Below the pieces are notes generated by a model. It worked only from the letters and a program-made list of their open reading frames with translations. It was not told the origin of the DNA and did no database searches. A program made the position numbers and the translations under genes. DNA of 5,457 nucleotides from Clostridia bacterium (lineage in GTDB: Bacteria > Bacillota_A > Clostridia > Oscillospirales > CAG-272): assembly GCA_017631775.1 (NCBI GenBank), contig JAGBSQ010000088.1:1-5457 (forward strand). Direction: 5' to 3'. Below, piece after piece: positions 1-5,457 of the stretch. Numbering within the stretch: position 1 is the first letter of the stretch; each line of letters starts with the position of its first letter.

Positions 1-202
1 GATCAACCGTCAGGTCAAATAATTCGTCAAGTGTTACGCCAAGCTCGGTTGCCAAGGCAGGCAAAAGCGAAATATCGGGCATTGTGGTGGCGGTTTCCCA
101 TTTTGAAACCGATTGCGCGCTGAGGCCGAGAGCATTTGCAAGCTGTTCTTGCGTGAGCCCTGCTTTGTAGCGCAGCTGCTTAATTTTGTTTCCAATTTCC
201 AT
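1..202 (-). CDS. XRE-family helix-turn-helix transcriptional regulator (5' part, cut by window edge)
   Basis: Reading the minus strand from the ATG at 202-200 gives 67 uninterrupted residues that run off the left edge, so the C-terminus is unseen. The N-terminus MEIGNKIKQLRYKAGLTQEQ, followed by LANALGLSAQSVSKWE (residues 21-36) and MPDISLLPALATELGVTLDE (41-60), is the classic Cro/C1-type HTH_3 fold. The turn and recognition helix fall at about residues 17-36, including the conserved SVSKWE. Such proteins bind operator DNA as dimers. Whether this one is a short stand-alone HTH protein or carries a C-terminal membrane or sensor domain cannot be told. The start is supported by an AGAGG Shine-Dalgarno (minus strand of 211-215) 8 nt before the ATG and by a good promoter further up. 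It lies downstream of lysC on the same strand, but with its own promoter and an intervening terminator, so it is probably a separate unit. Its target is unknown; autoregulation is possible. Confidence 0.9.
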   Translation of the reverse strand, partial: MEIGNKIKQLRYKAGLTQEQLANALGLSAQSVSKWETATTMPDISLLPALATELGVTLDELFDLTVD

Positions 203-541: not shown

Positions 542-1864
542 TTATTTTACAAACTCATTATAAATAGCAGTGAGTGCTTTTTCGAGGTCGTGTTCTTCCA
601 CACCGATGATGATGTTAAGCTCGCTTGAACCTTGGTCGATCATACGAATGTTGATGCCTGCATTGGAGATAGCAGAGAACACACGTGCCGCGGTACCCTT
701 GGCTTTTACCATACCGCGACCAACGACTGCAAGGAGAGCGAGACCGTCCTCGATAACGATGCTATCGGGATGTACGCGCTTGTTGATGGAGGTCAGGATG
801 CGTTCTCTCTTGAACTCGTCTTTAATGCAGGAGGAAGAGATGATAACGCTCATGGTATCAACGCCGGAGGGCAGATGCTCAAAGGAGATGTCGTTGTCCT
901 CGAGTACGTCAAGTACGCGACGGCCAAAACCGATCTCGGAGTTCATCATGTCCTTTTCGATATAGATGATAGAAAATCCGCGTCTGCCTGCAACACCGGT
1001 AATGATGTGCTCGTTATCGTATTCCGAGGTAGCGGAAACGATCATGGTGCCGGGGGCTGTGGGATCGTTGGTGTTGCGAATGTTGATCGGAATGCCTGCG
1101 TGGCGAACAGGGAAGATCGCATCCTCGTGCAGAACCGATGCACCCATGTAAGAAAGCTCGCGCAATTCGCGATAGGTGATGGTCTTAATGGGCAGGGGAT
1201 CGTCAACAATGCGGGGGTCTGCCATCAGACATCCCGAAACGTCTGTCCAGTTTTCATAAAGATCTGCTTCTGCCGCGCGGGAAACGATAGAGCCGGTAAT
1301 ATCCGAGCCGCCGCGGCTAAAGGTCTTAATGGTGCCGTTGGGCATAACACCGTAAAAGCCGGGAATAACGGCATATTGGTGCTTTTTGAGTTCTTCGCGC
1401 AAGCAGTTGTTGGTTTTTTCTTCATCAAACGTGCCGTTCTCGCGGAAGTAGATGACCGATTCGGCATCAATAAAATCGAACTTGAGATATTTGGCAAGAA
1501 TGAGGGAGTTGAGATATTCACCGCGGCTTGCGGCAAAGTCTTGACCGGAGTAGTGTTCAATCGCATTGCGAATATAATCAAGCTCACCCGAAATATCAAA
1601 ATCGAGGCCGAGATCTGCAATAATCGAATTATAGCGCTCGCAAATCAGCGCATAATACTCGCTAATGTTTTTGCCTTGGCGCACAAGCTCATAGCAATGG
1701 TAAAGCATATCGGTTACCTTAACGTCCTCTTTGTGTCTCTTGCCGGGGGCAGAGGCAACAACGTAACGGCGCGCAGGGTCTGCCTTTACAATTGCGGCAA
1801 CACGGCGGAACTGATTGGCATCTGCCAAAGAGGAGCCACCGAATTTAACAACTTTCATTTCCAT
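542..1864 (-). CDS. lysC: Aspartate kinase (monofunctional, with C-terminal ACT domains)
   Basis: It phosphorylates L-aspartate to 4-aspartyl phosphate, the first committed cytosolic step towards lysine/diaminopimelate, threonine and methionine. The 440-aa product has the amino acid kinase fold at about residues 4-280: KFGGSS (7-12) near the N-terminus, SRGEYLNS (113-120), the nucleotide/aspartate-site motif SRGGSD (183-188), WTDVSG (206-211), ADPR (215-218), and ELSYMGASVLHEDAI (236-250). Two ACT regulatory domains follow (about 295-360 and 374-440); the second carries the VGRGM and GINIRMIDQGSSELNI segments typical of feedback-binding domains. The length fits monofunctional aspartokinases, and no homoserine dehydrogenase is fused. 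The start is set by AAAGGA 8 nt before the first ATG; the second ATG (M3) would sit too far, at 14 nt. It is transcribed alone and leftward, divergently from the T-box operon. The leader of about 50 nt is too short for a lysine riboswitch, so control is probably allosteric (inference). Confidence 0.97.
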   Translation of the reverse strand: MEMKVVKFGGSSLADANQFRRVAAIVKADPARRYVVASAPGKRHKEDVKVTDMLYHCYELVRQGKNISEYYALICERYNSIIADLGLDFDISGELDYIRNAIEHYSGQDFAASRGEYLNSLILAKYLKFDFIDAESVIYFRENGTFDEEKTNNCLREELKKHQYAVIPGFYGVMPNGTIKTFSRGGSDITGSIVSRAAEADLYENWTDVSGCLMADPRIVDDPLPIKTITYRELRELSYMGASVLHEDAIFPVRHAGIPINIRNTNDPTAPGTMIVSATSEYDNEHIITGVAGRRGFSIIYIEKDMMNSEIGFGRRVLDVLEDNDISFEHLPSGVDTMSVIISSSCIKDEFKRERILTSINKRVHPDSIVIEDGLALLAVVGRGMVKAKGTAARVFSAISNAGINIRMIDQGSSELNIIIGVEEHDLEKALTAIYNEFVK

Positions 1865-1990: not shown

Positions 1991-2019
1991 TTGACAAATA
2001 TAAGTGGGAGTGATATAAT
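1991..2019 (+). promoter_or_regulatory. Consensus extended -10 promoter of the T-box operon
   Basis: A perfect TTGACA (1991-1996), a 17-bp spacer, and a perfect TATAAT (2014-2019) preceded by TG at 2011-2012 (TGATATAAT) make an ideal sigma-A promoter with an extended -10. Transcription would start near 2026, just ahead of the T-box stem I. Strong constitutive initiation with control left to leader termination is the usual T-box design. Confidence 0.92.
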
Positions 2020-2025
2020 AATCAG

Positions 2026-2282
2026 TAATAATAAAAGATGTTGACCGAAAACAAGTAGGTAATTCCTGCGTGCACAGAGAACTGTCGGAGGGTGCGAGAC
2101 AGAGACAAAGAATTGCTGAATACAGTTCGCGAGTTTCGTACCGAAGGCAAATGGTTGGTAGGCTACGACGGGCAGCCCGTTACAGCGCACAAAGTGGTTG
2201 GTCAAAAAGATCAACAACAGAGGTGGTACCGCGGTAGTTCCATCGCCCTCTGCGCGTGTCGCAGAGGGCGGTTTTGTTTTTT
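2026..2282 (+). promoter_or_regulatory. T-box riboswitch leader, predicted tyrosine (UAC) specifier
   Basis: This cis-acting RNA binds uncharged tRNA and then permits read-through into the downstream genes. Visible elements, in order: AGUA of the stem I internal loop (2054-2057); a stem AAUUC (2061-2065) with GAAUU (2110-2114); the AG-rich side ACAGAGA (2074-2080); a distal hairpin CUGUC/GACAG (2082-2086, 2098-2102) with loop GGAGGGUGCGA; then CUGAA followed by UAC (2121-2123) in the specifier position. The order GAA-UAC resembles the Bacillus subtilis tyrS leader, hence Tyr. Stem III is a 7-bp hairpin with an A5 loop (2197-2203/2209-2215). The T-box AGAGGUGGUACCGCGG spans 2219-2234. The antiterminator pairs AGAGG (2219-2223) with CCUCU (2247-2251) and GCGGU (2231-2235) with AUCGC (2242-2246), leaving the bulge UGGUACC; its UGGU complements an ACCA tRNA end, as expected for tRNA-Tyr. 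The exact stem I base is unsure (CGAAA 2046-2050 with UUUCG 2134-2138 is possible). Confidence 0.95.
2244..2282 (+). terminator. Rho-independent attenuator terminator of the T-box
   Basis: CGCCCTCTGCG (2244-2254) and CGCAGAGGGCG (2260-2270) form a perfect 11-bp stem with loop CGTGT, followed by G and the tract TTTTGTTTTTT (2272-2282). Its 5' strand contains the CCUCU and CGC that the antiterminator needs (2244-2251), so the two folds exclude each other. With charged tRNA this hairpin should stop transcription 19 nt before the ligase start codon. Confidence 0.95.
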
Positions 2283-2289
2283 GGTCGGA

Positions 2290-2295
2290 AAGGGG
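2290..2295 (+). promoter_or_regulatory. Shine-Dalgarno site that fixes the ligase start
   Basis: AAGGGG lies 6 nt before the ATG at 2302-2304 and just after the attenuator U tract. The reading frame stays open upstream to an ATG-like start at 2092, but that stretch is the structured T-box RNA. This site therefore decides for a 544-aa product rather than a 614-aa one. Confidence 0.85.
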
Positions 2296-2301
2296 AATTC
2301 C

Positions 2302-3936
2302 ATGACAATTATCGATTTGTTAAATCAAAATGCATCACTTTATGGGGAAGAGACCGCGCTGGTAGAGATCAACCCCTGCTTTGAACCCGAAAGCCGCTTG
2401 ACGTGGAAGGATTATTCCCTGATGCAACCCGAACCCGGCAAGCCCTTCCGCCGCGCCCTCACATGGGGCGAGTTTAATGCCAAGGCAAACCGTTTTGCCA
2501 ACTTTTTGCTCACAAGAGGCTGCAAAAGAGGGGATAAGGTTGCTATCCTTTTGATGAACTCCATTGAGTGGCTCCCCATTTATTTTGGTATTCTCAAGGC
2601 GGGTGCCATCGTTGTGCCGCTCAACTACCGCTACGTGGCAGAGGAGATCAAATACTGTCTTGAAAAGGCCGATTGCTCCATGCTCGTTTTCGGTCCCGAA
2701 TTTGTGGGACGTATGGAACAGATCTGCGATGCTTTGCCCGACGTTAAGCATATGTTCTACGTTGGTGAGGATTGCCCCTCCTTTGCCGACAGCTACGATA
2801 AAATGATTGGCTATTGCAACACCAAAGCGCCCGACATAACCATTGAGGAGAGCGACGATGCCGCTATCTACTTTTCCTCGGGCACTACGGGTTTTCCTAA
2901 GGCTATTTTGCATGCCCACCGCAGTCTCATTCATGCGGCAAGGGTAGAGCACAATCACCACGGTCAAACACACAACGACGTTTTCCTTTGCATTCCGCCT
3001 CTTTATCACACAGGTGCAAAAATGCACTGGTTTGGCTCTTTGATGAGCGGCAGCAAGGCAGTGCTCCTCAAGGGTACGCGCCCCGAGTGGATCTTTAAAG
3101 CCGCAAGCGACGAGCGTTGCACCATAGTTTGGTTGCTTGTTCCGTGGGCGCAGGATATACTTGACGCCATCGAGCGTGGAGACATTAAGCTTGAAGATTA
3201 TGATCTTGAACAGTGGCGACTGATGCACATTGGCGCACAACCCGTGCCGCCCTCTCTTGTTCGCCGTTGGCTCAAGGTGTTCCCAAACCATCAATATGAC
3301 ACAAACTACGGTCTTTCCGAGTCCATCGGCCCCGGTTGTGTTCACCTTGGCGTTGAGAACGTCGAAAAGGTTGGTGCCATCGGCAAAGCCGGCTACGGCT
3401 GGCAGGTTTGCATCATCAACGAGCGTGGAAGTATTGTTCCGCGCGGTGAGGTTGGTGAGCTTTGCGTAAAGGGCCCCGGTGTTATGAAGTGCTATTACAA
3501 GGATAAAGAAGCCACCAATGAGATCCTTCACGGTGAGTGGCTCCTGACGGGAGACATGGCAATGGAGGACGAGGACGGCTTTATCTTCCTTGTTGACCGC
3601 AAAAAGGACGTTATCATTACGGGTGGCGAAAACCTCTATCCCGTACAAATCGAAGATTTTATTCGCAAGAACAATGCCGTTAAGGACGTAGCCGTTATCG
3701 GCTTGCCCGACCCCCGACTTGGCGAGATTGCCGCCGCCATTGTGGAGCTCAAAGAAGGGTACACCTTGACCGAGGAGGAGCTTGAGCGCTTCTGTGCGCC
3801 GCTTCCTCGTTACAAGCGCCCCCGCCGCATCATTTTTGCCGAGGTTCCGCGCAATCCCACCGGCAAAATCGAAAAACCCAAGCTGCGCAGTATGTACTGT
3901 GGCGAGAGCCTTGTAGCGCAGCAGATCGAATCCTGA
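2302..3936 (+). CDS. AMP-forming acyl/aryl-CoA synthetase (ANL superfamily), T-box controlled
   Basis: It activates a carboxylic acid with ATP to an acyl-adenylate and transfers it to CoA, releasing AMP and pyrophosphate; it is cytosolic. The 544-aa product has the full class I adenylate-forming set: P-loop FSSGTTGFPK (191-200), substrate-pocket PPLYHTGAK (232-240), YGLSE (336-340), TGD (416-418), the hinge region VDRKKDVIITGGENLYP (431-447), and the C-terminal catalytic lysine in PTGKIEK (519-525, K522). It looks intact and of normal family length. The general family (FadD, benzoate/cinnamate/aryl ligases) is clear, but the acid used cannot be read from sequence. Its place between a Tyr T-box and iorA, with a 13-nt gap to the latter, suggests an arylacetate such as 4-hydroxyphenylacetate or phenylacetate, to supply aryl-acetyl-CoA to the oxidoreductase. 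Alternatives are fatty-acid activation or an acid-exporting role in aromatic degradation. Translation should begin at 2302. Confidence 0.93.
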   Translation: MTIIDLLNQNASLYGEETALVEINPCFEPESRLTWKDYSLMQPEPGKPFRRALTWGEFNAKANRFANFLLTRGCKRGDKVAILLMNSIEWLPIYFGILKAGAIVVPLNYRYVAEEIKYCLEKADCSMLVFGPEFVGRMEQICDALPDVKHMFYVGEDCPSFADSYDKMIGYCNTKAPDITIEESDDAAIYFSSGTTGFPKAILHAHRSLIHAARVEHNHHGQTHNDVFLCIPPLYHTGAKMHWFGSLMSGSKAVLLKGTRPEWIFKAASDERCTIVWLLVPWAQDILDAIERGDIKLEDYDLEQWRLMHIGAQPVPPSLVRRWLKVFPNHQYDTNYGLSESIGPGCVHLGVENVEKVGAIGKAGYGWQVCIINERGSIVPRGEVGELCVKGPGVMKCYYKDKEATNEILHGEWLLTGDMAMEDEDGFIFLVDRKKDVIITGGENLYPVQIEDFIRKNNAVKDVAVIGLPDPRLGEIAAAIVELKEGYTLTEEELERFCAPLPRYKRPRRIIFAEVPRNPTGKIEKPKLRSMYCGESLVAQQIES

Positions 3937-3937
3937 A

Positions 3938-3944
3938 AAGGAGG
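3938..3944 (+). promoter_or_regulatory. Strong Shine-Dalgarno site of iorA
   Basis: AAGGAGG lies 5 nt before the ATG at 3950-3952, inside the 13-nt gap after the ligase stop codon. No promoter or terminator fits in this gap, so the two genes should be co-transcribed under the T-box. Confidence 0.85.
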
Positions 3945-3949
3945 TTTTT

Positions 3950-5457
3950 ATGAAGAAATTAATGCTTGGCAACGCCGCCGTAGCGCAAGGCGCTTATGAA
4001 GCAGGCGTGCATCTTGTTTCCTCTTATCCGGGCACGCCCAGCACCGAGATTACCGAGTGCATGGCGACTTACCCTCAAGAAGAGGTATTTGTAGAGTGGG
4101 CTCCCAACGAAAAGGTAGCCGCCGAGGTTGCTATCGGTGCATCGATTGCAGGAGGCAGAGCTATGACCTGCTGCAAGCACGTAGGGCTCAACGTTATGGC
4201 AGACCCCCTCTTTACCAACAGCTATACCGGTGTGCATGGCGGCATGGTCTACTGCGTAGCAGATGACCCCGGAATGCATTCCTCGCAAAACGAGCAGGAT
4301 TCTCGCCACTATGCAAGGGCGGCAAAAATCCCCATGCTCGAACCCTCCGACTCTTTGGAGTGCCGCGACTTTACCAAAGCGGCGTTTGATTTGAGCGAGG
4401 AGTTCGACACTCCCGTGCTCGTTCGTCTTTCCACTCGTGTTTCTCACTCACAAAGCCTTGTGGAGCTTGGTGAGAGGGAAGTACATCCCGTAAAGGAATA
4501 CCAAAAGAACATCGCAAAGTACGTTATGATGCCTGCAAACGCCATCAAGCATCACGTTGTTGTTGAAGAAAGAACAAAGAAGCTTGAAGCGTATGCCGCA
4601 GATTGTTCTTTCAACACCGTTGAGGACAACGGCAGCGACATTGGCGTCATTTCGGCAGGTATTGCATATCAGTATGCAAAAGAGGCTCTTGGCGAAAAGG
4701 TCAACTACCTCAAGCTCGGCATTGTTTGGCCGCTTTCCGAAAAACTGCTCAAAGACTTTGCATCTAAGTGCAAGATCGTTTACGTCATTGAAGAACTCGA
4801 CCCCTTTATTGAGGATGCATGTCGCGCGATGGGCATAGATGTCAAAGGAAAAGAACTTTTCTCTATGCTTGGAGAATATACCCCCTCTATGATCAAAAAG
4901 GTTGTGTTGGGTGAAGATGCCGCAGAGTTTGTTGCACTTGAAGAGCAAATTCCCGGTCGTCCTCCCGTTATGTGTGCGGGATGTCCGCACCGCGGAACCT
5001 TCTACGTCCTCAACAAATTGGGCGTTACCGTTTCGGGCGATATCGGTTGCTACACCTTGGGCGCTGTTGCACCGCTCGCCGCGGTTGATACAACCATTTG
5101 CATGGGTGCATCTGTCAGCGCGGCACACGGCATGGCAAAGGTGCAGGGCAAAGAGTTTGCAAGCAAGCTCGTGTCTGTTATTGGTGACTCTACCTTTATG
5201 CATTCCGGCATTACCGGACTGATCGACATTGTTTATAACAAGGGCATCAATACCGTTCTCATTCTCGATAATTCCATTACGGGTATGACGGGACATCAAG
5301 ATAACCCCACCACGGGCAAGACCATTCGCGGTGAGGCCACCCGTCAGGTCGACCTCATCAAGCTCTGCCAAGGCATTGGCGTTGAGCGCATTATGGTTGC
5401 CGATCCCTTTGACGTAAAGAATTTTGAAAAGGTCGTTAAAACAGAACTCGCAACCGA
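3950..5457 (+). CDS. iorA: Indolepyruvate:ferredoxin oxidoreductase, alpha subunit (3' end beyond window)
   Basis: It is the thiamine-diphosphate subunit of an oxygen-sensitive cytosolic enzyme that interconverts arylpyruvate + CoA + oxidised ferredoxin with aryl-acetyl-CoA + CO2 + reduced ferredoxin. The open frame runs 502 codons to the right edge. The N-terminal pyrimidine-binding part has GNAAVAQGAYEAGV (7-20), SSYPGTPSTEI (24-34), EWAPNEKVA (49-57) and CCKHVGLNVMADPLF (74-88). The middle part holds CAGCPHRG (342-349) and GDIGCYTLG (364-372). The ThDP/Mg site includes GDSTFMHSG (412-420) and LDNSITGMTGHQDNPTTG (439-456). Family members are about 580-650 aa and end in a 2[4Fe-4S] ferredoxin domain, which would lie just past the window; iorB is expected next. 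It follows the CoA ligase under the same Tyr T-box, which favours reductive carboxylation (synthesis of arylpyruvate) over degradation. Substrate preference among the indole, phenyl and hydroxyphenyl forms is unresolved. Confidence 0.95.
   Translation, partial: MKKLMLGNAAVAQGAYEAGVHLVSSYPGTPSTEITECMATYPQEEVFVEWAPNEKVAAEVAIGASIAGGRAMTCCKHVGLNVMADPLFTNSYTGVHGGMVYCVADDPGMHSSQNEQDSRHYARAAKIPMLEPSDSLECRDFTKAAFDLSEEFDTPVLVRLSTRVSHSQSLVELGEREVHPVKEYQKNIAKYVMMPANAIKHHVVVEERTKKLEAYAADCSFNTVEDNGSDIGVISAGIAYQYAKEALGEKVNYLKLGIVWPLSEKLLKDFASKCKIVYVIEELDPFIEDACRAMGIDVKGKELFSMLGEYTPSMIKKVVLGEDAAEFVALEEQIPGRPPVMCAGCPHRGTFYVLNKLGVTVSGDIGCYTLGAVAPLAAVDTTICMGASVSAAHGMAKVQGKEFASKLVSVIGDSTFMHSGITGLIDIVYNKGINTVLILDNSITGMTGHQDNPTTGKTIRGEATRQVDLIKLCQGIGVERIMVADPFDVKNFEKVVKTELAT

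Follow-up and report, generated by a model that had tools for sequence, protein, structure and literature searches.

A stretch of 5,457 nucleotides from a Clostridia bacterium (contig JAGBSQ010000088.1 of assembly GCA_017631775.1; referred to here as the window) carries a T-box leader with a tyrosine specifier. It is followed by genes for an adenosine monophosphate (AMP)-forming acyl-coenzyme A (CoA) ligase and for the alpha subunit of indolepyruvate:ferredoxin oxidoreductase (IOR), iorA. This arrangement, the central observation of a preliminary description of the window, is confirmed (Table 1). The window is very likely the tyrosine member of a group of T-box-switched salvage modules, each specific for one amino acid, in which an acid is converted to its acyl-CoA, then to a 2-oxoacid, and then to the amino acid. 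The proposed biosynthetic direction is well supported.

Together with the genomes of related gut Clostridia, the window probably represents a coded salvage regulon. In such a regulon a specifier naming the product would stand before each dedicated CoA ligase (for tyrosine, isoleucine, valine, and leucine), and the ligases would feed IorAB or VorABC and a transaminase. Fermentation acids left by other organisms would thus be turned back into the amino acid that is in short supply. For isoleucine and valine this route would largely replace the lost ilvC route. The regulon would also explain, in genes and in their control, the branched-chain and aryl acids long described as growth factors of rumen bacteria.

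The tyrosine module is proposed to work as follows. Uncharged tRNA-Tyr would pair with the UAC specifier and the T-box bulge, as in other members of the T-box family, and stabilise the antiterminator, leading to read-through. The substrate that the ligase would activate to the CoA thioester is an imported arylacetate, 4-hydroxyphenylacetate being the most likely. We infer this substrate because the specifier is a tyrosine codon. IorAB with reduced ferredoxin and CO2 would carboxylate the thioester to 4-hydroxyphenylpyruvate; the chemistry is that of the family, and the direction is the one proposed here. An aminotransferase, mostly encoded elsewhere, would then yield tyrosine. In the relatives, the same logic would apply to isoleucine, valine, and probably leucine, via other ligases, VorBAC, and IlvE.

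Of the Rfam families, only the T-box leader matches the window at E values up to 1. The match spans positions 1-219 of the 219 positions of the model, and its score lies above the gathering score of 93. None of 200 shuffled sequences is as stable as the terminator stem. The 5' arm of the terminator overlaps the antiterminator pairing CAGAGG/CCUCUG, as read from the sequence, and the two folds are mutually exclusive. When folded alone, the antiterminator stretch (z -0.96) and Stem I (z 0.30) are not better than shuffles, so these parts rest on the covariance model. The UGGN of the T-box core presumably pairs with the acceptor end of the tRNA.

Because the Rfam alignment shifts by one base at the loop, the register of the specifier was calibrated with four T-boxes from G001, the genome of the closest relative. 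These T-boxes read GUC (valS, the second gene of the operon), UGG (a TrpB-like gene), AUC (ileS), and UUC (a partial pheS), and in each of the four one base follows the triplet before the lower helix. In the calibrated register the predicted specifier of the window is UAC, for tyrosine. The triplet ACA, obtained from the raw Rfam columns, is ruled out by this check on known genes. At locus L112 (130-3047), a valine T-box (GUC) is followed by an 875-residue open reading frame without NCBIfam match and then by valS.

Table 1. Features of the window, with positions counted from its first nucleotide
Feature	Position	Strand	Evidence or remark
Sigma-70 promoter TTGACA-17-TATAAT	1991..2019	+	12/12 consensus positions
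T-box leader (tRNA-sensing RNA switch)	2032..2253	+	Rfam RF00230, 117.9 bits, E 1.6e-26
AGAGA motif, Stem I	2076..2080	+	Sequence; aligns with AGAGA of the RF00230 model
Predicted specifier triplet UAC (Tyr)	2121..2123	+	Loop GAA-UAC-AG between helices GGUAAUUC/GAAUUGCU and CGAA/UUCG; register calibrated with four G001 T-boxes
T-box core AGGTGGTACCGCGG of antiterminator	2221..2234	+	Sequence; conserved block of RF00230
Intrinsic terminator (stem 2242-2272 and T-rich tail)	2242..2282	+	-24.7 kcal/mol, z -6.1; terminator scan
AMP-forming acyl-CoA ligase (FadD-like), proposed 4-hydroxyphenylacetate--CoA ligase, 544 aa	2302..3936	+	PF00501 and PF13193
iorA, indolepyruvate:ferredoxin oxidoreductase alpha subunit, incomplete at window edge	3950..5455	+	TIGR03336, 645.5 bits, profile 1-518 of 595
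Aspartate kinase	542..1864	-	Own perfect promoter 1949-1921; divergent from T-box operon
Start of HTH_3-type DNA-binding protein, incomplete at left edge	2..202	-	

The iorA gene starts 13 nucleotides past the stop codon of the ligase on the same strand, a gene order that predicts one transcript unit for both. The iorA match falls below the NCBIfam cut-off of 650.9 bits, and profile positions 519-595 lie beyond the edge of the window. The ligase has no PF14535 (AMP-binding_C_2) domain, which is present in the PaaK of relatives, so it is not a PaaK; the PaaK of relatives is encoded by a gene separate from the FadD-like ligase. None of the 25 best NCBIfam models matches the window ligase above its own cut-off.

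The window was compared with the genomes of relatives. The closest is locus L001 in G001, whose ligase is 94% identical. The ligase homologues considered here are the best 80 loci of a longer match list from a collection of species genomes (68-94% identity). A consensus-pattern scan, which weak T-boxes may escape and for which eight of the 80 contigs start less than 450 bases from the ligase, places a T-box core ahead of the ligase in 16 loci. In three more it stands ahead of an SSF symporter gene leading into the ligase, giving 19 of 80. For 11 of these 19 loci the genome was included in an Infernal search, which by position (comparison of coordinates) has a T-box at all 11. In a separate sample of one family (61 genomes including the central one), the ligase is found in seven genomes (E up to 1e-150), and in one of the seven (L235) a UAC T-box precedes it. 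Among 30 iorA loci with flanks of up to 1.5 kb, some of them the same operons again, no T-box was found directly before iorA; four weak core matches, one at L084 and three at L105, lack AGAGA. Ligase homologues of 69-70% identity are also found on contigs labelled Lentisphaerae, Lentisphaeria, or Victivallales (L035, L041, L071, and L080), by either lateral transfer or binning error.

A tabulation of specifiers across genomes had been proposed in the preliminary description. It gives UAC in 20 of 20 ligase-tied T-boxes (the 19 loci and the window); the Stem I loop of L079 has an additional base. This constancy bears on the identity of the acid. Salvage could be real and the substrate a different one, namely phenylacetate, indoleacetate, or a phenylpropionate, the tyrosine specifier reporting a general shortage of aromatic amino acids. 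IORs take phenyl-, hydroxyphenyl-, and indolepyruvate (PMC13285125, in the part available), the work of 1965 concerns phenylacetate to phenylalanine (cited in PMC7356843, likewise available in part), and a PaaK-type ligase is often found in the same operon. Against this, phenylalanine and tryptophan codons are never found as specifiers at these ligase loci, and the closest relative has separate T-boxes for phenylalanine (pheS) and tryptophan (TrpB-like). A different aryl acid is therefore an unlikely substrate, and 4-hydroxyphenylacetate is preferred.

The ligase is followed by iorA on the same strand in 19 of the 80 loci, eight with a T-box (L001, L002, L003, L009, L018, L023, L024, and L072) and 11 without. 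A ninth T-boxed case is L016, where the contig stops within iorA; a second contig of the same genome starts with the same bases and carries iorA-iorB-paaK-ACT. The window stops inside iorA, and the preliminary description had asked for the IorB partner and for an aromatic aminotransferase. Both are found in relatives. In L001 the order is T-box, ligase, iorA, iorB, paaK, and an ACT pair, so that iorB lies directly behind iorA. In L030 a pyridoxal phosphate (PLP)-dependent aminotransferase closes a ligase-iorA-iorB operon that has no T-box core, and L027 and L049 have a ligase-aminotransferase pair, again without the core.

Transporter genes of four families are found in nine of the 19 T-boxed loci: SSF in L013, L018, L023, L024, L026, and L056, ABC in L079, MFS in L021, and DMT in L055 (the MFS and DMT matches being below NCBIfam cut-offs). 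Elsewhere in G001, another UAC T-box stands before a partial SSF sodium:solute symporter gene (L114). Over 127 residues, this symporter shares 73% identity with the SSF protein of another ligase locus; it is a candidate aryl-acid importer.

Another set of T-boxed ligases is found for the branched-chain amino acids. G001 has two tandem T-boxes, AUC (Ile) and GUA (Val), before fusions of helix-turn-helix (HTH), cupin, and AMP-ligase domains. A LeuA-like gene and a TIM-barrel/AMP-ligase fusion lie behind a third T-box, which reads CUC (Leu). In Rfam alignments of five more genomes (G003, G007, G009, G015, and G017), the isoleucine leader is found in five, the leucine leader in five, and the valine leader in four. 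In G017 (Ruminococcus flavefaciens) the valine leader was not found among the loci read, and the leucine leader stands directly before the TIM-barrel gene, without the LeuA-like gene.

Tandem HTH-cupin-AMP-ligase fusions, each with its own T-box (Ile AUC, then Val GUA or GUC), are found at L116 (184-4740), L153 (49-9648), L170 (191-9774), and L165. In L153 and L170 they lead into a P-loop gene, vorBAC, and ilvE, an arrangement that is a predicted branched-chain acid salvage cluster. In L153, VorB and IlvE are above the NCBIfam cut-offs, and the other two Vor subunits are below. Eleven genomes were picked for a Vor-like match near the HTH-cupin ligase and are not a random sample; in all 11, vorB, vorA, vorC, the P-loop gene, and ilvE are on the ligase strand within a few kilobases. 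In ten of the 11, a T-box stands ahead of an HTH-cupin ligase of the same genome. The T-box of G004 reads CUG, and the vor-adjacent ligase copy of G032 has no T-box.

The specifiers of the HTH-cupin ligases follow the tree of the proteins. Among 29 proteins of at least 500 residues (from 36 rows, with seven shorter copies left out and L171 and L172 counted as AUC), the specifier is isoleucine in 16, valine in ten, and CUG in one (L183), and two have no T-box core within 460 bases. The valine-specified proteins group together with L183, and the isoleucine-specified ones form two groups; none of 500 shuffles equals this clustering for either group, a result favoured by the relatedness of the rows. 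L183 is thus a ligase of the valine group whose T-box has CUG instead of a valine codon.

The leucine arrangement, with a CUC T-box before the LeuA-like gene and the TIM-barrel/AMP-ligase fusion, is found at L158 (45-4209), L111, L154, L170 (11230-15395), and L201-L219. A core with the AGAGA motif precedes the LeuA-like gene at 12 of 20 loci, and the specifier is CUC in 11 of the 12, read mostly by eye and at L208 from the alignment, with L212 outside this reading. The LeuA-like protein P0005 retains the LeuA_dimer domain. The HxH motif, which we take to be the metal motif of LeuA, is intact in none of the 19 rows L201-L219 aligned with P0005 (L201 being the same gene as P0005, and L220, which lacks that part, being left out); L214 and L218 keep one H. 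The LeuA-like protein is perhaps a leucine-sensing pseudoenzyme.

The need for these routes differs between the amino acids. The gene ilvC, which encodes ketol-acid reductoisomerase (PF01450), was sought in 40 genomes, mostly metagenome assemblies by title and of unstated completeness. The HTH-cupin ligase is matched in 26 of them at E up to 1e-100; 22 were counted as positive, having a copy that starts at query residue 9 or earlier with at least 55% identity. With kinship ignored in the test, ilvC is missing in 18 of the 22 genomes with the ligase and in 5 of the 18 without it (Fisher p = 0.001). The contrast is weaker when all 26 matched genomes are counted (19/26 and 4/14; p = 0.009). Two culturable isolates, Ruminococcus flavefaciens YAD2003 (G017) and Y1 (G018), have the HTH-cupin ligase and no ilvC by PF01450, and the ligase T-box of G017 reads AUC. 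Across the 40 genomes, the prephenate dehydrogenase domain is above cut-off in 31 and chorismate synthase in 36. These counts rule out tyrosine auxotrophy as the reason for tyrosine salvage. Tyrosine salvage seems to be an extra route, and branched-chain salvage seems often to be the sole one.

The direction of the pathway is the point on which a catabolic reading differs. There, IorAB would oxidise arylpyruvates from amino acid breakdown, the ligase would handle the acyl-CoA or acid products, and the T-box would only tune expression. According to the available part of PMC13285125, IOR takes part in fermentation in Pyrococcus and, in Bacteroides thetaiotaomicron, in converting phenylalanine to phenylacetate; ligase-iorAB-paaK-ACT blocks also exist without a T-box core (L004, L007, L008, L010, L070, and L078). 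However, a T-box would then switch the genes on when the amino acid to be burnt is scarce, and AMP-forming ligases typically favour acyl-CoA synthesis (PMC13285125, same part). The transporters in the T-boxed loci and the branched-chain twin modules, which unite ligase, Vor, and IlvE and whose genomes mostly lack ilvC, also speak against breakdown, and a catabolic role is quite improbable. The anabolic direction put forward in the preliminary description is thus supported, most strongly by the isoleucine, valine, and leucine T-box modules in the same genomes. In the 11 branched-chain clusters, a putative acid ligase, a ferredoxin-dependent carboxylating enzyme, and a transaminase are co-located, mostly behind T-boxes for the amino acids of the proposed route.

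Several observations weigh against salvage under tyrosine control. The nearest solved chains to the ligase are FadD13 and FadD5, which are fatty-acyl-CoA ligases, and the consensus scan does not find a T-box core at 61 of the 80 ligase loci, 11 of them ligase-iorA tandems. These two points would fit a ligase of fatty-acid type that stands between a tyrosine T-box and iorA by chance. UAC T-boxes, however, recur at 19 ligase loci of varied gene order, the ligase-iorA tandem itself recurs, and an aminotransferase gene is near the ligase in L027, L030, and L049; chance placement is thus very improbable indeed. Ten of the 19 T-boxed loci have no iorA beside the ligase (in one of them, L031, the contig ends shortly past the ligase). 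In ten of the 19 ligase-iorA tandem loci paaK and ACT follow, which puts a second, PaaK-type ligase in the operon. No T-box core was found in G005, one of the 11 branched-chain clusters. Finally, salvage shows no link to loss of the shikimate route: of the genomes with a tyrosine T-box, 15 of 19 have the prephenate dehydrogenase domain, as do 16 of the remaining 21 genomes (p = 1).

Outside the T-box operon, the divergent aspartate kinase gene of the window is retained in the closest relative with 93% identity.

The salvage chemistry has been known in rumen microbes since the 1960s: it is reported that rumen bacteria form phenylalanine from phenylacetate (1965) and leucine from isovalerate (1962), both cited in the part of PMC7356843 available. 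The switched gene sets may supply the genes for it. They are candidates for the tyrosine, isoleucine, valine, and leucine versions of this salvage and come with its likely control, and the physiology of acid salvage becomes testable gene by gene. From within the genome, the T-boxes also hint at the direction in which enzymes commonly annotated as catabolic may run, and their specifiers are offered as predictors of substrate for anonymous CoA ligases.

The literature search found no paper joining a T-box, a CoA ligase, and a ferredoxin oxidoreductase in this way; two main T-box compilations (RNA 2008 and MMBR 2009) lie outside this search, and an earlier mention is possible. The nearest paper, on Geobacter metallireducens, has a table of upstream sequences that puts iorAB-paaK under tryptophan, and in the available part of its text a T-box is named for leuA only. 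Taken singly, the RNA switch and the chemistry are both known; what is not found in the literature searched is their union, with one specifier per acid ligase.

Several known systems resemble parts of the proposed regulon. The best NCBIfam match of the HTH-cupin ligases is the acyl-CoA synthetase MbcS (NF047394; 442.9 bits, under the curated cut-off of 850), which we take to use 2-methylbutyrate and isobutyrate. Unlike MbcS, these ligases have extra HTH and cupin domains and are mostly found behind isoleucine or valine T-boxes. With the T-boxes of Firmicutes (RF00230), the leader of the window shares RNA family, structure, and specifier logic. A survey of 2008 lists tyrosine T-boxes on tyrS, tyrosine biosynthesis, and NhaC transporter genes (PMC2494555, main text). 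In the part available, its T-box targets include no CoA ligase or ferredoxin oxidoreductase, unlike the window, and the terms indolepyruvate, ferredoxin, CoA ligase, and phenylacet have no occurrence in that main text.

For Bacteroides, the idea that an IOR next to an AMP-forming ligase works in biosynthesis has been published before (PMC13285125, 2026, in the part available). There, the neighbouring ligase is reported to be an arylacetate-CoA ligase and the authors suggest biosynthesis, so that the co-located genes and the suggested direction are like those of the window. The window, in contrast, is from another phylum, and the available part of that paper mentions neither a T-box nor an amino-acid-specific set. 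The same part notes that the IOR of a methanogen has been proposed to work in reverse for biosynthesis. In the aryl-acid pathway of methanogens and rumen bacteria, a ligase and IOR run reductively to aromatic amino acids, as is proposed for the window. The genes of the window differ in that the ligase is FadD-like with PF13193, not PaaK, and in that a tRNA-sensing RNA would link them to a single amino acid.

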